IMG/VR virus record: IMGVR_UViG_3300035703_000226
Span: 1 to 36,926 of that record
Strand: one strand, 5' to 3'
Length of the DNA: 36,926 nucleotides
DNA from: a virus
Positions 10,721 through 24,947 of the stretch are shown piece after piece. The position numbers and the translations under genes were made by a program. Position 1 is the first letter of the stretch; every line of letters begins with the position of its first letter. Under the pieces are notes generated by a model. The model saw nothing but the letters and a program-made list of their open reading frames with translations, made no database searches and was not told where the DNA came from.

Positions 10721-11806
10721 TCATGCGCTCTCCCCTGCTTTTCTGCGGGTTTCGGGGGTTTCGGCTTCGGGTGGTTCGGGACTATTCCGGGACTCGGCGG
10801 CGGCCATCAGTTTGCGGACCTCGTCCTCGCTGGTGTGGAAGTAGCGGCGGGTGGTGCGGATGTCGCTGTGGTTCGCCAGCCTCTGCGCGGCCTCGATGCT
10901 GCCGAGCCTTGTCAGCGCGGTGTGGCGGGTGTCGTGGAAGCGGAAGCCTTCGATCCCGGCCTCGGCCAGCGCGCGGCGCCATTTGCGGTCCCAGCCCTGC
11001 TTGCTGAAGGGGTAGCGCTCGCCCCTGCGGCGCGCGGGGCGGTCTTTGCGTTTGGGGCTCGGCCGCTCGCAGACGTAGGTAAAGACCTGGGCGCAGACCT
11101 TCGGCTGCTGGCGGATGATCGCGGCGAGGCGCGGCGTCAGCGGGAAGGTGTGGCGCTGGCCGCCTTTCGTGCTGACAGTCGCGCGGGCGTTCACCAGATC
11201 GACGTCGCTCCAGCGCAGGGTGACGATTTCGGCGCGGCGCTGGCCGCTGATCAGCGCGAATTCGACGATCGGTTGCAGGCTCTCGGGCAGGTGATCGAAC
11301 AGGCGGGCTTCCTCCTCGGCGGAGAGGATGCGGGTTTCGGGGGCTTTCTCTTTCAGCTTCGCCTCGCGCCAGTCGATCGCCGGGACATCATAGCCGCGGG
11401 CCTCGCACCAGTTGCAGACCCGGCGCAGCAGCGCGATCTCGCGGTTGACGCTGGCGTTGGAGACGGCGGCGCGGCGGCGGGCGATGTACTTGTCGAGATC
11501 GCGCAGGGTGAGATCGTGCAGCCAGCGGTTCTTGCCGAGGCTGACGGCGAGATTGTCGAGCTGGTAGAAGGTGGTGGCGCGGCTGCGCTGGTGCTGGCCC
11601 TTGATCTCGAACCACTGGCCGCAGGCGAGATCGAGGGTGATCGGCGGCTTGGCGACCTCGCCTAGCGCGGCCTTGCGGCGGAGCTCGGCCTCGAAGCGTT
11701 CGGCATCGCGGCGCGACGTGCATCCCGTAGAGCCGTGATACCGACGACTCTGGAACTGGAAATCGAATTGCCAGAAGCGGCTTTTGGCGGGTTTGTAGAC
11801 GGACAT
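10721..11806 (-). CDS. int: Tyrosine recombinase integrase
   Basis: Encodes 361 residues on the minus strand. The start is ATG 11806 because GAGGAG (complement of 11815-11820) precedes it by eight bases; the frame continues upstream but only as a shadow. An N-terminal arm-binding region (residues about 1-60) and a core-binding SAM-like region (about 65-150) precede the catalytic domain. Catalytic residues are visible: Arg190 in SGQRRAE, His291 and Arg294 in HDTRH, His313 in ANHSD and nucleophile Tyr322 in RRYFH. It ends the leftward operon and abuts attP; its last codons contain the right arm repeat. It should integrate the phage into a tRNA-Pro gene. Confidence 0.95.
   Translation of the reverse strand: MSVYKPAKSRFWQFDFQFQSRRYHGSTGCTSRRDAERFEAELRRKAALGEVAKPPITLDLACGQWFEIKGQHQRSRATTFYQLDNLAVSLGKNRWLHDLTLRDLDKYIARRRAAVSNASVNREIALLRRVCNWCEARGYDVPAIDWREAKLKEKAPETRILSAEEEARLFDHLPESLQPIVEFALISGQRRAEIVTLRWSDVDLVNARATVSTKGGQRHTFPLTPRLAAIIRQQPKVCAQVFTYVCERPSPKRKDRPARRRGERYPFSKQGWDRKWRRALAEAGIEGFRFHDTRHTALTRLGSIEAAQRLANHSDIRTTRRYFHTSEDEVRKLMAAAESRNSPEPPEAETPETRRKAGESA
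10773..10798 (+). repeat. Right copy of 26-bp direct repeat, inside the integrase 3' end
   Basis: Perfect copy of 10552-10577, read through by the integrase gene as the residues around SRNSPEP. The paired location on either side of the tRNA core supports an arm-type site. Coding and recognition functions would overlap here. Confidence 0.75.
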
Positions 11807-11991
11807 TGCGGGCGCTCCTCGCGGGCCTGCCGCTCGATATAGTCGGCGAGATCGTCCTCGCGATAGAGGATTGTGCGGGGGGTCGGGCGGACGTGGCGGA
11901 TGAGGCCGGCGCTGCGCAGGCCGCGCAGGGTGCGCGGGGCGATGTGCAGGCGGGCGGCGGCCTCGGCCTCGGTGAGGAGGTGGGGGATCAT
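11662..11991 (-). CDS. Excisionase-like DNA-binding protein (MerR/HTH_17 type), overlapping int
   Basis: Encodes 109 residues on the minus strand from ATG 11991, which overlaps the methyltransferase stop (ATGA). Residues 1-60 form a winged helix of the excisionase type (LLTEAEAAARLHIAPRTLRG, then ILYREDDLADYIERQ). Proteins of this kind direct integrase toward excision by bending attP. The remaining 50 residues have no recognisable fold and are encoded in a 145-bp out-of-frame overlap with the integrase gene. The domain normally ends where the overlap begins, so the tail may simply be read-through tolerated by the overlap. Confidence 0.8.
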   Translation of the reverse strand: MIPHLLTEAEAAARLHIAPRTLRGLRSAGLIRHVRPTPRTILYREDDLADYIERQAREERPQCPSTNPPKAASGNSISSSRVVGITALRDARRAAMPNASRPSSAARPR

Positions 11992-13664
11992 GCGGCCTCC
12001 CTGCCCTGCTCGGCAGCATCGATCATGTTCGCGCCCGCCAGCGCTCGCGCGAGTGGCGGGCAGACCGAGTTGCCGCACTTGGCGACCTGCGCGGTCTTGG
12101 TGATCGGCTTGCCGCTGCTGTCGCGGTCGATGATGTAATCGGGCGGAAAGCCCTGCGCGTTGAAGAGTTCGCGCGGGGTCAGCATCCGCATCCCGATATC
12201 GACGATCACGTATTCCTCGCCCGCGATGGTGACGGTCACCAGCCCGAAGCGATCGTTGACGGTGACGGTGCCGAGCGGATTGCTCAGGCCGTGGCCGTCC
12301 TGTTCGTTGCCGTAGTATTTGACGAGGAAGGCGCGGACTTCGGCCATGTGAAGGCCGCCTGCGCTGAGGGTGTGGAGCGGTTCATCGACCGGCTGACCGT
12401 GGGCGCAGGTGCCGCGCAGCTTCACCAGATTGCTGGTAACAAGGCGCTGCTGGCTGCCAGTGGTGGCGACGGTCGAAAGCGGATCGCTGGCCGCGCGACC
12501 GGCAAGGTTGGCATTGTTCGGCCCGCCGTTGGCCTGCTCAACATGCGCGGCGACCAGCTGGGCAACGGCGACATGATGCTTGGTCCCGCCGGCAACGACG
12601 GTGCCGAGAGGTTTCTCGATGTCCATTGCGCGCGGCGCCTGCCCTGCCCTTTCGCCGTTGCCGACGTGGACCAAGTGCGCGGCGGCGAGGCCGAAGCGCG
12701 GATCGCAAGTGGCAGTGCGCAGGGGTTCGTCAACGGGATTGGCCGAGCGCACCTTGCCCCCCTCCTTCTCGCCGTAAAAGGGCGATATCACCGGGCTGAC
12801 CACCGCCATCTCGCCGCCCTTAGCGGTGGTGATCGTGCGCAGCGGCTCGTCGCCCGGATAGAACCTATCGCCCGCCCAGTTGGTGTTGCAGATCGGCACG
12901 ATGAACGGCGACGGGTTGTTGACCACGAATTTCATGATCCCGTGCGCGATGCGGCGCAGGGTCTTTTCGGCAAGCGGCTTCGGGCGCTCGAAGATGCTCG
13001 GGCACGGGATCGACCAGTCGATGATCTCCGCCGCGGTGCGCCACGGTTTGCGCTGGCCGCTCAGAACCTCGGGGCTGCCGGGCTTGCCGTGCGTCGGTTC
13101 GGGCCAGCGGATCGGCTTGCCATCGCAGCGGGCGACCATGAAGAACCGCTTGCGGATCGTCGGCGCGCCGTAATCGCAGGCGCGCAGCTCGCGGAACTCG
13201 ATCTTGTAACCCAGCTTGCGCAGCTCGCGGCACCACTGGTCGAAGGTTTCGCCCTTGCGTTCGGGGATCGGCTTGCCCTGTTCGCAGAGCGGCCCCCAGG
13301 TGCGAAATTCCTCGACGTTCTCGAGCAGGATCAGCGCGGGCCGGACGCGCTTGGCCCAGAGCACCACCACCCACGCCAGATCCCGGATCGACTTCTCGCG
13401 CGGCTTGCCGCCCTTGGCCTTGCTGAAATGCTTGCAGTCGGGCGAGAACCACGCGAGGTCGACGGGCTCGCCCTTGGTTACATCACGCGGGTCGATCTGC
13501 CAGATGTTGTTGCGGATGTGCACGGTGCCGGGGTGGTTTGCCTCGTGCATCCGGATCGCCTGTTCATCGTGATTGATGGCGTAATCGACCGCGCGCCCCA
13601 GCGCCTGCTCGATGCCGGTGGAAGCCCCGCCGCCGCCAGCAAAGTTGTCGATGATGAGGCCCAT
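11988..13664 (-). CDS. C5-cytosine DNA methyltransferase with a repeat-containing target-recognition region
   Basis: Encodes 558 residues on the minus strand from ATG 13664, overlapping the upstream stop. The methyltransferase motifs appear in order: IDNFAGGGGAS (motif I, residues 5-15), SPDCKHFS with catalytic Cys77 (motif IV, PDC instead of PC), LLENVEEF (motif VI, about 113-120), RKRFF (motif VIII, about 171-175) and LTPRELFNAQGFPPDYI plus KCGNSVCPPLA near the C-terminus (IX-X). Between about 270 and 470 a PL-x-T motif recurs six times. It probably methylates phage DNA against host restriction. The gene sits in the leftward early arm with excisionase and integrase. Confidence 0.92.
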   Translation of the reverse strand: MGLIIDNFAGGGGASTGIEQALGRAVDYAINHDEQAIRMHEANHPGTVHIRNNIWQIDPRDVTKGEPVDLAWFSPDCKHFSKAKGGKPREKSIRDLAWVVVLWAKRVRPALILLENVEEFRTWGPLCEQGKPIPERKGETFDQWCRELRKLGYKIEFRELRACDYGAPTIRKRFFMVARCDGKPIRWPEPTHGKPGSPEVLSGQRKPWRTAAEIIDWSIPCPSIFERPKPLAEKTLRRIAHGIMKFVVNNPSPFIVPICNTNWAGDRFYPGDEPLRTITTAKGGEMAVVSPVISPFYGEKEGGKVRSANPVDEPLRTATCDPRFGLAAAHLVHVGNGERAGQAPRAMDIEKPLGTVVAGGTKHHVAVAQLVAAHVEQANGGPNNANLAGRAASDPLSTVATTGSQQRLVTSNLVKLRGTCAHGQPVDEPLHTLSAGGLHMAEVRAFLVKYYGNEQDGHGLSNPLGTVTVNDRFGLVTVTIAGEEYVIVDIGMRMLTPRELFNAQGFPPDYIIDRDSSGKPITKTAQVAKCGNSVCPPLARALAGANMIDAAEQGREAA

Positions 13665-14981: not shown

Positions 14982-15508
14982 GCTGCTTTCCTTTCGGTCA
15001 CGGCGGGTTCGATCCCGCGCAGGAGTTCGGGGTCTGGCGCGGGGGCGCCGAGGTGGATGGCGAGGCACTGCAGGTCCCATCCGCGTTGCAGCGCGGCGAG
15101 ATCGGCGGGCTGCTCGCAGGCCTTGCGCAAGGCGGCGTCGCGGGCGCGGGCGAGCTCGGCGAGGATTTCGGCGCGCTCGGCCAGTTCGAACCACTCCATC
15201 CGCGCGACCTTGCCCTGCGGCCAGATGCAGGGGGCCGCGAGTTCGGGCAGATCGGCCCCGGCCTTGCCTGCGATCGCGAGCCAGAGGCGGGCGTTGTCGT
15301 TCGCGGCCTCGGCCGAGATCGTGCCGGCGGCGTGCGCCTGCTCGAGCGCGGCGCGGCGGCGGTGGAATTCCTGCGAGGCGATTCTTGTGAGCGCGCCCGC
15401 CTCCGCGGGCGCGTCCTCGCGGCTGTTCCTCGCTGCGCTCGGGCCGCTGCGGGCGGCCGGTCGGCCTTGCGGCGAGGCTTCGCCCGCCGGTGCTTGCTCG
15501 GGCTTCAT
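14978..15508 (-). CDS. Unknown early protein carrying an inserted repeat peptide
   Basis: Encodes 176 residues on the minus strand from ATG 15508 (overlapping the upstream stop). Residues about 12-31 (SPQGRPAARSGPSAARNSRED) lie in a DNA repeat of 60 bp that has a second copy at 17720-17779. From about residue 40 on, the protein is predominantly helical (for example RRRAALEQAHAAG and LAELARARDAALRK) with a conserved-looking LWLAIAGKAGADLPE stretch. No domain is recognised. The repeat lies in what looks like an unstructured N-terminal tail, so it may have been inserted without disturbing the fold. Confidence 0.7.
   Translation of the reverse strand: MKPEQAPAGEASPQGRPAARSGPSAARNSREDAPAEAGALTRIASQEFHRRRAALEQAHAAGTISAEAANDNARLWLAIAGKAGADLPELAAPCIWPQGKVARMEWFELAERAEILAELARARDAALRKACEQPADLAALQRGWDLQCLAIHLGAPAPDPELLRGIEPAVTERKAA
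15413..15472 (-). repeat. 60-bp dispersed repeat, copy 1 (in-frame inside a gene)
   Basis: About 92% identical (five differences) to 17720-17779 in opposite genomic orientation, but read in the same frame in both genes, giving PQGRPAAR-x-G-x-SAA. Copies lie in the first parts of the two divergent early operons. Confidence 0.85.
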
Positions 15509-16021: not shown

Positions 16022-16080
16022 GGTGACTGTTTGCATATTGCAAACTGGTTGGTCAAGCTAAATGTTTGCGTGATGCAAAC
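16021..16080 (-). promoter_or_regulatory. Leftward early promoter with two operators (left operator cluster)
   Basis: Two 17-bp dyads, GTTTGCATATTGCAAAC at 16029-16045 and GTTTGCGTGATGCAAAC at 16064-16080, have centres 35 bp apart. On the minus strand TTGACC (16056-16051) and CAAACA (16033-16028) with a 17-bp spacer form a plausible promoter; the first dyad covers its spacer and -10, and the second lies upstream. The same dyad occurs in the right cluster, so one repressor should control both sides. The -10 is weak, so the promoter call is less certain than the operators. Confidence 0.75.
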
Positions 16081-16088
16081 CGTGCAGC

Positions 16089-16859
16089 CTAGCCGTCGCC
16101 GGTCGAGACCACCTCAAAGCTGCAATCGCTGTTGTTCACGGTTGCCACCAGCGCGCCGACATTCATGCCGCCAAAGCCGTTGCGGGCGCGGTAGCGCATC
16201 ATCAGGACGTGCGTGCCCTTGTCGCTGACGGGCGTGATCCGGGTCTCGATGTGCTCGAAGCTGTCCGGATCGCGCAGGTTGTCCTTGAGTGTATTCACCA
16301 GCTCGCGGTGCGAGCCGTCCCACGCCGAGAGGCAGTGAAAGCCCGCTTTGCGCTTTTCCTGCTCTGCGATGGCGTCCGGATCGGGCGCGGGTGGGGACGA
16401 GCTGGCCGTCCTGCTGGCGCTTTCGGGTTCGGGCAGGGTGCCGGTCAGGATAAGTCCAACGACAACCGCCGCCGCGATCAGGGCGATCTTGAGCGGCTTC
16501 CACGAAGGTTGCTTCTGGGCTGGGGCGCGCTTTTGCGGGGCTGGCTGCCCTGCCCTTGCATCTGCGGCTGTCAACACTGCGAGCACGACGCCGCGCGAGG
16601 GCTTGCCCCGCTCGCCGCCGACAACAGCGTGGATTTGCGCGCGAACGGCGGTCTTCTGGTCTAGCATCGCGCCGGTCAGCCAGCTATCGCGCGGGATGTA
16701 ACCGATGGTCGCGCCGGTCAGATCGGCGCAGCGCAGCGCGCGGGGATCGTGGGGATTGTCAGGCTCGTGCGTGATGGTGACAGGATCGCCCGGGGAAAGG
16801 CTGGTGATCGCCGCCTGATAGTTTGCCTCGCCCGCAAGCTCGATGGTGTAGCGCCCCAT
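16089..16859 (-). CDS. HIRAN-domain membrane protein co-expressed with the repressor
   Basis: Encodes 256 residues on the minus strand, starting five bases after the repressor stop. Residues 1-90 form a HIRAN domain: SPGDPVTITHEPDNPHDPRA, then IGYIPRDSW at 52-60. A Lys/Pro-rich linker precedes one membrane span at about 123-141. A second linker leads to a C-terminal domain (about 172-256) with a LRDPDSFEHIETR block and RARNGFGGMNVG, and two Cys (176, 246) that could form a disulfide outside the cytoplasm. HIRAN domains elsewhere bind DNA ends or stalled forks. Downstream of the repressor, it is probably expressed in the lysogen. Function is unknown; superinfection exclusion or another conversion trait is possible. 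Confidence 0.8.
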   Translation of the reverse strand: MGRYTIELAGEANYQAAITSLSPGDPVTITHEPDNPHDPRALRCADLTGATIGYIPRDSWLTGAMLDQKTAVRAQIHAVVGGERGKPSRGVVLAVLTAADARAGQPAPQKRAPAQKQPSWKPLKIALIAAAVVVGLILTGTLPEPESASRTASSSPPAPDPDAIAEQEKRKAGFHCLSAWDGSHRELVNTLKDNLRDPDSFEHIETRITPVSDKGTHVLMMRYRARNGFGGMNVGALVATVNNSDCSFEVVSTGDG

Positions 16860-16864
16860 TGCCT

Positions 16865-17230
16865 CTAGCCCTTGCCGCCCTCCGATGTTCCGAAAGCCGG
16901 TAAGTCAAAGTCGTCGGGCTTGCCAGCGAAATCCGCTTTGCGATCAGAGACAAGGCGCAGTGCCTCGCGCTGGATTTCCTGCCGGTGGCGGATGATCTGG
17001 AAGGCGTCCTCGGGCGGCATCAGCAATTCGTAGGGTTCGCGCTTCAGTGCGGTTGCCGCTGATTTGAGCAGATCGACATTCATGTCCTGCTGGCAATTGT
17101 AGAGCAGGCTGGCGGTGGTTTTCGACCAGCCTGCCTCGCGCACCATGTAGGACTGGTTCACGCCAAGCGTGTCCATCCATTCCTTGAGATACCAGGTCAC
17201 CGGGATCACGGGGCGCGTGCGCTTGGCCAT
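16865..17230 (-). CDS. XRE-type phage repressor (CI-like), no self-cleavage domain
   Basis: Encodes 121 residues on the minus strand from ATG 17230. Residues about 13-72 form an XRE-like helix-turn-helix (WYLKEWMDTLGVNQSYMVRE, then KTTASLLYNCQQDMNVDLL). A helical linker and a short tail follow; there is no S24/LexA-type peptidase domain. It lies between the two operator clusters and faces away from the Cro-like gene, the position of a CI repressor. An operator abuts its start codon, with a promoter placed so that transcription would begin at the ATG, implying a leaderless, autoregulated message. The upstream extension of the frame overlaps the divergent gene and is rejected. Confidence 0.8.
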   Translation of the reverse strand: MAKRTRPVIPVTWYLKEWMDTLGVNQSYMVREAGWSKTTASLLYNCQQDMNVDLLKSAATALKREPYELLMPPEDAFQIIRHRQEIQREALRLVSDRKADFAGKPDDFDLPAFGTSEGGKG

Positions 17231-17324
17231 GTTTGCAGAATACAAACGGGGCAATCGCCTGTCGTTAGGCCTCCCGCAAACTTGGGGGCTTGTCAGACAG
17301 TTTGCAATATGCAAACTAGCGAGC
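17231..17324. promoter_or_regulatory. Right operator cluster with divergent repressor and early rightward promoters
   Basis: Dyads GTTTGCAGAATACAAAC at 17231-17247 and GTTTGCAATATGCAAAC at 17300-17316; a degenerate site (TTAGG...CCGCAAAC, 17265-17281) lies midway, giving centres at 17239, 17273 and 17308. On the minus strand ACGACA (17265-17260) and TATTCT (17242-17237), 17 bp apart, would start transcription at the repressor ATG. On the plus strand TTGTCA (17290-17295) and CAAACT (17312-17317), 16 bp apart, drive the Cro-like gene. The layout resembles the lambda right operator. Confidence 0.8.
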
Positions 17325-17627
17325 ATGGACGAGCAACTCACCATCGAAGGTCTGCGCCGCGAACTGGGCCTCACCCAGACCGAGTTTGCACTCAAGATCG
17401 GCCTTGCGAACAAGGCTTCGGTTTCGCTGCTGGAGCGCGGCGGCCCCTGCTCGCTGCCGGTCGCGCTGGCGATCGAGGCGCTGAGCGGGGGCCGGATCGA
17501 TGCCGGTGAACTCAACGAGGATGTGAAGGCGTCGCGTCATGCCCTGCTGGATAGCGCGGGGGCTGCGGCGGTGTCAGCGGGAAAGAGCGGCGGGAATTCC
17601 CGCCTTTCCGATCAGGGGGTTGCGTGA
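17325..17627 (+). CDS. Cro-like XRE regulator, first gene of the rightward early operon
   Basis: Encodes 100 residues from ATG 17325, nine bases after an operator. An upstream extension of the frame would cross the operators and is rejected. Residues about 7-55 are a helix-turn-helix (LRRELGLTQTEFALKIGL, NKASVSLLERG). The last 30 residues are Ser/Gly-rich and probably disordered. No ribosome site precedes the ATG, and the predicted start of transcription is within a base or two of it, so this message may also be leaderless. Divergent from the repressor and under a shared operator, it fits Cro, the antagonist that favours lytic growth. Confidence 0.8.
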   Translation: MDEQLTIEGLRRELGLTQTEFALKIGLANKASVSLLERGGPCSLPVALAIEALSGGRIDAGELNEDVKASRHALLDSAGAAAVSAGKSGGNSRLSDQGVA

Positions 17628-17815
17628 TGGGTTGGCTTCAGGATTCGTTTCTGACGTCGGGGCGTTCCCTCGCTGAAGTGCCGCGTTGCATCGTGTCGCG
17701 ATCATCGGTGGCGCAGCCGCCGCAAGGCCGACCGGCCGCCCGCAGGGGCCTGAGCGCAGCGAAGAGCAGCCCCGAGGACGACGGCGCGGATGCGCCGGCG
17801 GGGGACAAGAAATGA
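17627..17815 (+). CDS. Small protein largely made of the dispersed repeat
   Basis: Encodes 62 residues from ATG 17627 (TGATG overlap with the Cro-like stop) to TGA 17813-17815, which overlaps the next ATG. Residues about 1-30 are unremarkable (GWLQDSFLTSGRSLAEV). From about residue 31 the sequence comes from the 60-bp dispersed repeat (PQGRPAARRGLSAAKSSPED) followed by an acidic tail. No known family. It may be a small gene that has been extended by repeat insertion. Confidence 0.5.
   Translation: MGWLQDSFLTSGRSLAEVPRCIVSRSSVAQPPQGRPAARRGLSAAKSSPEDDGADAPAGDKK
17720..17779 (+). repeat. 60-bp dispersed repeat, copy 2 (in-frame inside a gene)
   Basis: About 92% identical to 15413-15472 in inverted orientation, and read in the same frame as that copy. 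It begins CCGCAAGGCCGACCGGCC and ends CCCCGAGGAC, and is rich in short inverted CGG/CCG blocks. Confidence 0.85.
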
Positions 17816-18291
17816 CCATTCGCAAGGGCTTCATCAAGCTCGCCGTGATCCGGGCGATCAAGCATGTCGGCGGGATCGAGCGCGCGGGGCAGGCCTGCGC
17901 GGTCTCGCCTTCGCAGGCCGGGCGCTGGAACAACCGCAACGACATTGATCTGCCGACGCTCGAACACATGGTCGAGCTGGACGAGGCGGCGCTGGCTTGC
18001 GGCGGTCGGGCGGAAATCCTTGCCACCTTCGCCGCCGAGCTGGGCCACGTCGCGATTGCCCTGCCCGATGTCACCGGATCGCAGGCCAGCCTTGCCCTCC
18101 AGATGGCCGAGGCCACCGCCGAGTTCGGCGACGTCGCGCGCACGCTGATGGCGGCGCTGTCCGACGACGCGATCGACAACCGCGAGGCCGGCGCGCTGGC
18201 GCACGAGATCGATCAGGCGATGGGCGCGCTCGGCAAGCTGCGGGCGCTGGTGATCGAGGAAGAGCGCGGGTTTGTCCGCGCGGTGAAGTAG
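17812..18291 (+). CDS. Early regulatory protein, possibly CII-like
   Basis: Encodes 159 residues from ATG 17812, overlapping the previous stop. Residues about 10-50 form a helix-turn-helix-like block (AVIRAIKHVGGIERAGQACAVSPSQAGRW), where a residue-level pattern of ERAGQ-x-CAV-S-SQAGRW resembles phage regulatory CII-type proteins that sense copy number or damage and activate lysogeny. The remainder is helical with many Ala and acidic residues (MAEATAEFGDVARTLMAAL). Position as the third gene from the rightward promoter fits a CII-type role. The similarity is by eye only. Confidence 0.6.
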   Translation: MTIRKGFIKLAVIRAIKHVGGIERAGQACAVSPSQAGRWNNRNDIDLPTLEHMVELDEAALACGGRAEILATFAAELGHVAIALPDVTGSQASLALQMAEATAEFGDVARTLMAALSDDAIDNREAGALAHEIDQAMGALGKLRALVIEEERGFVRAVK

Positions 18292-18305: not shown

Positions 18306-19007
18306 ATGCTGGCTCGGGCCGAGAAAGAAAGGTTCACCTTCACCATCGCGCTCGCCGCGCCGGAAAGCGAGTTGCAGGCGTGGTTCGATCAGGCGCAGGC
18401 GGGCGAGAGTGTCACTTATGCCAGCGGCTTTGCCCTTCCGCGCGAGGCCGCCGGGGTCAAGCTGGTGCAGGCCTGGGCGCGCGAGGGCTTTGTCCACCTC
18501 AAGCAGGCGCGCGACCGCGATGATCCGCGCCGCATGCTGTTCCTTGCCGAGCGCGCCAGTCAGGGCTTCGCCCGGCCTCGTCCGGCCGCTGCGCGCGGTG
18601 ACGAGGTGACCCGCATCCAGCTGCGCAAGCTGCTCGAGACGATCCGCCGCGTCGCCGATCGCGGCGAGGTGCTGCCGCCTTACCGCCGCCTTGCGAGCGA
18701 TCTGTGCGGCACGCCGGCGCGCGGCCCGCAGGCGCGGCGCGGGGCTGACCGCATCAGCTACCTGCTGCGCCGCCTCGAGACCGAAGGCCGCATCCGCCTG
18801 ATCCCCGCCCCCGCCGGTGCCCAGCACGGCCCGCAGGTGACAGTGATCGCCAAGGGGCGCGGGTGCGGTTGCACGACGGCGAAGGGTGCGCGCTCAAGCA
18901 GCGCAGCGGTAGCGCAGAAAGAAACGCGCTCAAGCAGCGCAGCGGTAGCGCAGAAAGAAACGCGCTCAAGCAGCGCAGCGGTAGCGCAGGCAGGGAGCGG
19001 CAAGTGA
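18306..19007 (+). CDS. Winged-helix-like protein with a tandem-repeat C-terminal tail
   Basis: Encodes 233 residues. ATG 18306 has GGGAGG about eight bases upstream; the longer frame upstream is a shadow of the previous gene. Residues about 100-180 look like a winged helix (TRIQLRKLLETIRRVADRG, then ISYLLRRLETEGRIRLIPA). The last 40 residues come from a 36-bp tandem repeat and read SSSAAVAQKETR three times. No catalytic motif is seen. It may regulate the early operon or assist replication. Confidence 0.7.
   Translation: MLARAEKERFTFTIALAAPESELQAWFDQAQAGESVTYASGFALPREAAGVKLVQAWAREGFVHLKQARDRDDPRRMLFLAERASQGFARPRPAAARGDEVTRIQLRKLLETIRRVADRGEVLPPYRRLASDLCGTPARGPQARRGADRISYLLRRLETEGRIRLIPAPAGAQHGPQVTVIAKGRGCGCTTAKGARSSSAAVAQKETRSSSAAVAQKETRSSSAAVAQAGSGK
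18889..18989 (+). repeat. 36-bp tandem repeat, 2.8 copies, in frame
   Basis: Units start at 18889, 18925 and 18961 and encode 12 residues each (SSSAAVAQKETR). The core AGCGCAGCGGTAGCGC matches single copies at 21018-21039 and 23176-23197, so this is the amplified member of a dispersed family. Confidence 0.85.
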
Positions 19008-23064: not shown

Positions 23065-24947
23065 TGGCCTCGGCACACGACACCCCCGACCCCGCCGGGG
23101 AGGGATCTGGGATTGCTCCGAACGGATCGGGCGCGCCTGCTGACCAGAACGAAGGGGGCCGGGGAATAGAGGCCTCAAGCAGCGAAGCGGTAGGCCGACA
23201 GGAACGCAAGGTGGTCGCCTTGCGGCCCAAGGCCGACGAGGCGCTCGATCGCATCTGCGCCAAGTTTCCGATGACCGATCTCGGCAATGCCGAGCGCTTT
23301 GTCCACCGCTTCGGCAATGATTTCCGCTTCTGCGCCGAGCTGGGCTGGTTCCGCTGGGACGGCCGGCGCTGGCTGCTGCTGGGCGAGGAGCCGCGCGCGC
23401 TGCCGCCGGAAGTGATGCAGGCGCTGTTCGCCACGATGCGGGCGATCAAGAACGAGGCGCAGCTGGTGCGCGCCAGCGGTGCGCGCCCCGAAACGCCGCC
23501 TTACCTGGTGGGCGAGGATCTGGCGCGCTGGGAGCGCGAGCACGCCGGGAAGATGGATTTCGCGGTCGATTACAAGCGCAACGTGCCGGTGATGTATTCC
23601 GACAAGCTGGCCGAGTGGGCGCGCACCTCGGAAGCGGCGGGCAAGATCGCGGCCGCCGGCGCGCTGGCCAAGAGCATGGAGCGGCTCGTCGCCAACGTCC
23701 ACGACTTCGATGCCGACCGGATGGCGATCAATGTCTTGAACGGGACGCTCCGCTTGGAGCAGCGCCCGCGCAAACGCCCGGCGGATGAGATCGCGGCGGG
23801 CAAGAGCACCTTCCACACTGTCTGGACGCTGCGGCTCGACAACCACAATCGCGACGACTTCATCACCAAGGTCGCCGATGTCGAGTATCATCCGAACGCC
23901 AAGGCTCCGACTTACGAGGCCTTTCTGCAGGTGGTGCAGCCGAAGGAAGAGATGCGGCGATTCCTTGCCCAGTGGGGCGGGCTTTCGCTGACCGGCAACA
24001 CCGGGGAACAGAAGCTCGCCTTCTTCTATGGCGGCGGCTCCAACGGCAAGGGGACGTGGGTCGAGACGATCGCGCGAATCGCGGGCGATTATGCCGGCGC
24101 GATCAAGATCCAGTCGCTGCTGGATCAGGGCAAGCAATCGGGTGATGCGGCGACGCCTGCCATCGCCAGCCTGCCCGGCGTGCGCTTTCTGCGTGTGTCC
24201 GAGCCTTCGAAGGGGGCGGTGCTCGATGAGGGTCTCGTCAAGGAGCTGACCGGCGAGGATCCGGTGCGCGCGCGGCATCTGAACAAGGGCTTCTTCACCT
24301 TCTTTCCCGAGTTCAAGATCACGATTTCCGGCAACAACAAGCCGGTGATCAAGGATACCAGCGACGGCATCTGGCGACGGATGCAGCTGGTGCCGTGGGA
24401 GGCGGATATTCCGCCCGAGCAGCGCGACAAGGGCCTGAAGGACAAGCTGATGGCCGAGCGCGACGGGATCTTCGCCTGGCTGATGCGCGGCCTGCTGGAC
24501 TGGCGCAAGCACGGGCTGATCGAGCCGGAAGACGTGCGCCTTGCGACGTCTGAATACCGCGACGACAGCGACACCATCGGGCGCTTCCTGCGCCAGACCT
24601 GCGAGACGGGCGAGGACAGTCGCGCGCGGCCGTGGCGCGTGCGCAAGGGCGATCTGTTCGAGCTCTATCAGGCCTGGTGCCACCAGACCGGCGGCTACGA
24701 GATGCAGGAACGGGCGTTCTCGAAGGAGATGACGGCCAAGCGCTTCAGGGAGAAGCACTCCAATGGTTCGTGGTGGATCGGGGTCAAGCCGGTGGTCGAC
24801 CTGATCGACCTGAAGGACGGGCGCTGGACCGCTGCCGATGAGGATGCCCGCGAGGCCGATGATGCGGCGCGATCGGGCGCCGGCAGCGCGCCCTCGCCCT
24901 CTGCTTGGCCGACCGGCGAGAGCGGCGATTGGGTGCCCGGTGACTGA
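23064..24947 (+). CDS. P4/D5-type superfamily 3 replicative helicase
   Basis: Encodes 627 residues from ATG 23064. The first 35 residues are low-complexity and include a dispersed-repeat peptide (SSSEAVGRQERK). A D5-like N-terminal domain follows (residues about 45-270), then the helicase core with Walker A GGGSNGKGT at about 323-331, the Walker B region around LRVSEPSKGAVLDE, and a sensor-type ITISGNNKPVI. The C-terminal part is a winged-helix region (YRDDSDTIGRFLRQTCE). It unwinds DNA at the phage origin and works with the primase encoded just upstream. Confidence 0.92.
   Translation: MASAHDTPDPAGEGSGIAPNGSGAPADQNEGGRGIEASSSEAVGRQERKVVALRPKADEALDRICAKFPMTDLGNAERFVHRFGNDFRFCAELGWFRWDGRRWLLLGEEPRALPPEVMQALFATMRAIKNEAQLVRASGARPETPPYLVGEDLARWEREHAGKMDFAVDYKRNVPVMYSDKLAEWARTSEAAGKIAAAGALAKSMERLVANVHDFDADRMAINVLNGTLRLEQRPRKRPADEIAAGKSTFHTVWTLRLDNHNRDDFITKVADVEYHPNAKAPTYEAFLQVVQPKEEMRRFLAQWGGLSLTGNTGEQKLAFFYGGGSNGKGTWVETIARIAGDYAGAIKIQSLLDQGKQSGDAATPAIASLPGVRFLRVSEPSKGAVLDEGLVKELTGEDPVRARHLNKGFFTFFPEFKITISGNNKPVIKDTSDGIWRRMQLVPWEADIPPEQRDKGLKDKLMAERDGIFAWLMRGLLDWRKHGLIEPEDVRLATSEYRDDSDTIGRFLRQTCETGEDSRARPWRVRKGDLFELYQAWCHQTGGYEMQERAFSKEMTAKRFREKHSNGSWWIGVKPVVDLIDLKDGRWTAADEDAREADDAARSGAGSAPSPSAWPTGESGDWVPGD
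23176..23197 (+). repeat. Dispersed AGCGNAGCGGTAG repeat, single copy in the helicase N-terminus
   Basis: Shares AGCGAAGCGGTAGGCCG with the copy at 21018-21039 except one base, and is read in the same frame. It sits in the non-conserved N-terminal tail of the helicase. Confidence 0.75.

Follow-up and report, generated by a model that had tools for sequence, protein, structure and literature searches.

Background

In phage lambda and in P. putida the rexAB genes are located in the repressor operon, and the DNA-binding protein RexA is thought to activate the membrane protein RexB; lambda RexA acts on the CI promoter too (PMC12894663). Ltp of phage TP-J34 is a lipoprotein of the lysogeny module that blocks DNA injection (PMC3952083). 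The GenBank record of phage 186 carries for Orf97 the note 'expression from plasmid blocks 186 infection'. This annotation is a single line, and the blocking could reflect overexpression; no publication behind it was found in a literature search. The HIRAN domain of HLTF, finally, binds ssDNA (at 3' ends) and forks, a dinucleotide being stacked between Y72 and Y93 and N90/N91 being required (PMC4666394).

The protein described here is encoded in a 36.9-kb virus record, the whole of which is referred to as the window. By analogy, it resembles a one-chain RexAB with an outer domain placed as in Ltp. Like the genes of lambda RexAB and of the RexAB-type system of P. putida P1, its gene lies between the repressor and the next operators, and the product joins a DNA-binding-type module to a membrane module. 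Unlike the two-protein RexAB, however, the window has one gene between repressor and operators, with HIRAN standing for RexA, and the protein has one span, unlike the multi-span RexB channel; the likeness drawn here is one of layout. As in Ltp, a small domain of a lysogeny-module protein would be anchored outside the membrane, judging from predicted topology and operon position, whereas Ltp, a lipoprotein, has no cytoplasmic domain; this likeness is one of placement. The HIRAN domain, recognised by profile, is shared with HLTF/Rad5, HIRAN-HipA loci and the PADLOC model PDC-M03B. Unlike in these proteins it is tethered to the membrane, without helicase or nuclease. Orf97 belongs to a family (phrog_3403) whose named members are phage 186 Orf97, VHML ORF47, Peduovirus Orf97 and a protein of Aeromonas phage LPM4. 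Like Orf97, the window protein is membrane-anchored with the homologous domain placed after the span, but Orf97 has two N-terminal spans, no HIRAN domain and lacks the two cysteines discussed below. Moreover, unlike the window gene, 186 orf97 sits with tum in an SOS-controlled operon, outside the repressor operon.

The phage and its immunity region

Pfam scans of the window recognised a tyrosine integrase (10721–12019, minus strand; PF00589, E 5e-24), a terminase, a portal protein, a major capsid protein and a CII-type regulator (17812–18291, plus strand; Phage_CP76, E 3.5e-15), which is CII-like by phrog_101 as well. The window is a temperate phage. Its closest kin are IMG/VR contigs, and the host is likely to be a sphingomonad, since standalone HIRAN relatives of the window protein occur in Sphingomonadales genomes.

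The repressor-type gene (16865–17230, minus strand) specifies a 121-aa HTH protein with a weak match to HTH_26 (E 0.11). Two other viral contigs, the related loci L021 and L022, carry this gene at 88% and 80% identity, and in both the HIRAN gene again follows it. In the window, the HIRAN gene starts 5 nt past its stop. A divergent HTH gene (17325–17627, plus strand; HTH_3, E 8e-4) occupies a Cro-like position.

The palindrome GTTTGCNNNNTGCAAAC occurs at four operator-like sites in the window (8 strand-matches vs 0.02 expected in shuffles). Two lie upstream of the repressor-type gene, one beside its ATG (17231–17247) and one upstream of the divergent HTH gene (17300–17316); the other two lie beyond the HIRAN stop, one just past the gene (16064–16080) and one before the next leftward gene (16029–16045), with a conserved TTGACC between them. 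The gene pair is thus bracketed, and both pairs of palindromes are kept in L021 and L022. A PRM-like promoter, ACGACA (17265–17260) and TATTCT (17242–17237) with a spacing of 17, stops six bases short of the repressor ATG; its putative -10 is overlapped by the operator-like site at 17231, which suggests that the repressor and HIRAN transcript is leaderless and autoregulated. Terminator-like matches near the HIRAN gene showed no excess over shuffles, and one of them is an operator palindrome.

The layout of lambda is OL-rexB-rexA-cI-OR. As read from the gene order and the palindromes, that of the window equals it. The first-pass annotation had the HIRAN gene encoded with the repressor, and this is borne out by the 5-nt gap and by the operator-like palindromes that close off the two genes as a unit at either end. 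Given this arrangement, the HIRAN gene is likely to be expressed in the lysogen.

The two arms of a 77-nt inverted repeat (15398–15474 and 17718–17794, 87% complementary) flank the immunity region, in which the HIRAN gene lies together with the repressor and the four operators; the repeat might delimit a cassette or be a repeated element. A C-5 cytosine DNA methylase (11988–13610, minus strand) is encoded between the immunity region and the integrase. Elsewhere, a 36-nt unit is present in three tandem copies within an ORF (18889–18996), coding for ALKQRSGSAERN repeats, and a fourth, diverged copy is found at 23170.

Architecture of the HIRAN protein

The gene (16089–16859, minus strand, ATG start) specifies a protein of 256 aa. 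An N-terminal HIRAN domain had been proposed, and PF08797 matches with E 5e-8 and 33.1 bits, above the gathering score of 24.7. The Pfam match covers residues 14–69 and our own profile residues 5–97, giving a domain of approximately residues 5–97 (16569–16847, minus strand). No match above cut-off was obtained with NCBIfam. The membrane span expected after this domain was recovered by a hydropathy scan as a single predicted span at residues 125–143 (16431–16487, minus strand). It is preceded by five K/R residues and followed by one; by the positive-inside rule the topology is therefore predicted to be N-in/C-out, which would put HIRAN in the cytoplasm and the Orf97-type domain beyond the membrane. 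The latter domain, approximately residues 168–252 (16104–16358, minus strand), was delimited by alignments, phrog_3403 and an AlphaFold2 model. Here too the earlier description holds for the domain and its two cysteines, Cys176 and Cys246, both kept in at least 90% of close relatives, while the location outside the cytoplasm is a prediction from charge. A full-length model had a pTM of 0.38 with a poor HIRAN half and was left out of the analysis. HIRAN-only and C-only relatives were aligned separately.

The best PDB sequence matches of the window HIRAN domain are HLTF HIRAN chains, but they are weak (E 0.036). At HLTF positions 90, 91 and 93 the alignment places D, N and H, and therefore end-binding cannot be assumed. 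The N91 and D94 positions are kept; the counterpart of Y72 in our own alignment is probably N13. The stacking tyrosines are thus absent and the DNA-contact residues partly kept. The ligand of this domain, and signalling across the membrane, are at present a matter of guesswork.

HIRAN domains had been regarded as normally soluble. The collected set speaks otherwise: a predicted span was found in 29 of 85 distinct HIRAN ORFs, approximately one third, and by this count membrane HIRAN proteins are not exceptional.

Two other assignments were considered for the protein. An assignment to the PADLOC candidate defence protein PDC-M03B was rejected, the match being limited to profile positions 141–205 of 245, the HIRAN stretch, and not reaching the whole model. 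A HIRAN-HipA toxin-antitoxin locus, with the protein read as the HipA antitoxin, was dropped for want of a HipA neighbour: Pfam scans revealed none beside the HIRAN gene, whose flanks are HTH, CII and ORFs of no known family. Proteins with a degenerate HIRAN-like copy ahead of a good HIRAN domain were noted in two sphingomonad genomes (L131, L132).

The full fusion of HIRAN, span and C-terminal domain was found in two phages only, the window and L021, whose protein is 69% identical. L022 retains HIRAN and span, a stop and a deletion of approximately 260 bp taking away the C-terminal domain. The dN/dS ratios between window and L021 are 0.16 for HIRAN, 0.36 for linker and span, and 0.13 for the C-terminal domain; by the low values for HIRAN and the C-terminal domain, both are under purifying selection. 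In L150 the integrase is 86% identical to that of the window, yet the repressor is a different one, of S24 type. Here a gene for HIRAN with a C-terminal span overlaps a lipoprotein gene and lies tail to tail with the S24 repressor; in L152 a HIRAN-span gene is similarly placed. The lipoprotein and HIRAN-span genes (L150:4791–5656) present outer and inner parts as two proteins.

The C-terminal domain

Alignments of the C-terminal 85 residues gave the pattern GFHCLSAWDGSH...LRDPDSFEHIETRITPV...YRARNGFGGMNV...NSDC. The domain is without a Pfam model, had no match in NCBIfam or PADLOC, and no sequence relatives were found in the PDB. Its AlphaFold2 model (mean pLDDT 88) shows a helix and a four-strand sheet. 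A fold search with this model gave no PDB match at E <= 0.001; the best viral match was a lipoprotein of a Gordonia phage (E 6.6e-5). The highest Z in VIA-align was 7.4, to sheets of the cystatin/adhiron/NTF2-like kind; as many folds share this arrangement, no function was drawn from it.

The domain was present in 104 ORFs, counted over the loci first fetched and including repeat copies of one contig. Among 46 distinct stronger ORFs, 41 had a predicted span ahead of it, and the topology expected from charge agreed with an outside location in 28 of these 41 and was opposite in nine. The inner parts include zinc-ribbon, SHOCT, a two-span hairpin, a lipobox or none. On these profile searches the domain, which Pfam does not list, is widespread in phages and carried on many membrane anchors; that it forms a phage family in its own right had escaped the first-pass annotation. 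It is also encoded in bacterial genomes (zinc-ribbon, SHOCT and lipoprotein architectures), not all of these genes being known to be prophage-borne. A shorter related domain (DPxS...YRARNGFGG) occurs on phage zinc-ribbon or plain span proteins in L092, L094, L098, L104 and L117; these form a large group, several members being encoded directly behind an HTH gene.

Against phrog_3403 the window protein gave a match of E 6.4e-9 over residues 176–242, and the reciprocal comparison, phage 186 Orf97 against the profile of the domain, gave 43.6 bits. The phrog_3403 match covers profile positions 164–231 of 243 only, and the full Orf97 architecture is not present. By these reciprocal profile matches the domain is homologous to phage 186 Orf97.

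Linkage to repressors in other phages

A search for the same fusion beside other repressors had been proposed, and the fusion was found in L021, with HIRAN and span alone in L022; membrane HIRAN genes also lie directly behind unrelated repressors. In L154, L163, L156 and L159 such a gene is within approximately 20 nt behind a repressor-type gene, and in L158 approximately 475 nt behind one. These five phages are unrelated (GC 27–51%), and in four an integrase-like gene is next.

For counting, an ORF was scored when a repressor-type HTH ORF lay directly upstream on the same strand, the other ORFs of the same loci serving as baseline; against circularity, the HTH profiles were trained on repressors beside the other gene family. 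Membrane HIRAN genes scored in 7 of 31 cases and strong C-domain genes in 9 of 39, vs 13–15 of 1892 in the baseline (Fisher p 9e-9 and 2e-10, respectively), while soluble HIRAN genes scored in 3 of 62 (membrane vs soluble, p 0.014); these counts are inflated by related phages, the ORFs are mechanical and the loci were picked by similarity to these proteins. In L047, L059, L077, L010, L051 and L072 the gene upstream of the C-domain gene was confirmed by Pfam as a repressor of S24 or HTH type. Both domain families recur directly behind repressors in unrelated phages, and the window protein fuses them. In sphingomonads, many soluble HIRAN genes are arranged tail to tail with an HTH gene of repressor size. 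No description of a HIRAN-repressor association was found in a literature search.

Possible function

We cautiously favour the view that the lysogen makes the window protein as a membrane protein for excluding infection, encoded in the position of lambda rexAB. In such a scheme the repressor's promoter would provide both repressor and HIRAN protein, while the two operator pairs would silence the genes flanking the unit. Located in the inner membrane, the protein would keep HIRAN on the cytoplasmic side and expose the Orf97-type domain on the other. Upon superinfection the HIRAN part might encounter DNA of unusual structure, or an unusual replication structure, from the invading phage; alternatively, the outer domain might meet the entry machinery; infection would then be stopped at the membrane. 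This last step we infer from the homology of the outer domain to 186 Orf97 and from a gene position that is Rex-like and Ltp-like.

Superinfection exclusion had been suggested from the outset, through sensing of incoming DNA ends. Exclusion as such gains mainly from the Orf97 homology, at the other end of the protein, and from the recurrent repressor linkage. Operator bracketing in kin, purifying selection and the RexAB and Ltp precedents also count in favour of exclusion. Against it, no phenotype is on record for any membrane HIRAN protein; L022 has lost the C-terminal domain, and one part may therefore be dispensable; the Orf97 note is one line and orf97 belongs to an SOS operon; the HIRAN contacts are partial and the topologies of C-domain proteins mixed.

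The pair could instead be a damage-responsive switch, with HIRAN sensing host DNA that is damaged or stalled and titrating or releasing the repressor from its membrane position during induction. The tight coupling to a repressor gene in unrelated phages would suit this, as would the recognition of ssDNA and forks by HLTF HIRAN (PMC4666394) and the action of lambda RexA on the CI promoter (PMC12894663). We nevertheless think it unlikely. The repressors behind which such genes occur belong to different families (HTH_31, HTH_3, S24). In L150 and L152 the HIRAN-span gene lies tail to tail with the repressor, outside its operon, and a role in induction leaves the outer domain and its Orf97 homology unexplained. 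S24-type repressors, moreover, already possess RecA-linked induction of their own.

It is likewise improbable, in our judgement, that the protein is a lysogenic-conversion factor acting in the host envelope or stress response instead of against phages, its place in the repressor operon merely securing expression in the lysogen. Two conserved cysteines would fit an outer domain of this kind, as would the C-domain genes of bacterial genomes in zinc-ribbon, SHOCT and lipoprotein forms that are not all known from prophages; however, the one phenotype recorded for the family is an effect on phage infection, and phage immunity regions are enriched for both domains. That the fusion arose by chance when adjacent genes merged, and is neutral or decaying with one part being lost, might be read from its presence in two phages only and from the loss in L022, but is very improbable given dN/dS of 0.13–0.16 on both domains and the enrichment of each part on its own behind repressors.

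Returning to exclusion, a wider proposal is possible but decidedly tentative: temperate phages of unrelated hosts may use a repressor-coupled membrane HIRAN protein as a one-protein Rex system, in which a sensor of DNA or fork structure inside the cell is wired through the membrane to an exclusion domain. That domain may be of Orf97 type, but a lipoprotein of its own or just the span could also fill the role.

Conclusions

HIRAN, known mainly from DNA-repair helicases, emerges as a recurrent membrane-anchored module in lysogeny operons, and this prompts the question of what couples a sensor of DNA structure to the envelope in lysogens. The one-line observation on Orf97 is revived, its C-terminal domain belonging to a large phage family with no Pfam entry that tends to be encoded behind repressors. 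With the window protein, a common prophage exclusion device gains a candidate that can be tested; if the wider proposal is true, one-protein Rex systems would constitute an undescribed, widespread class of prophage-borne anti-phage devices.
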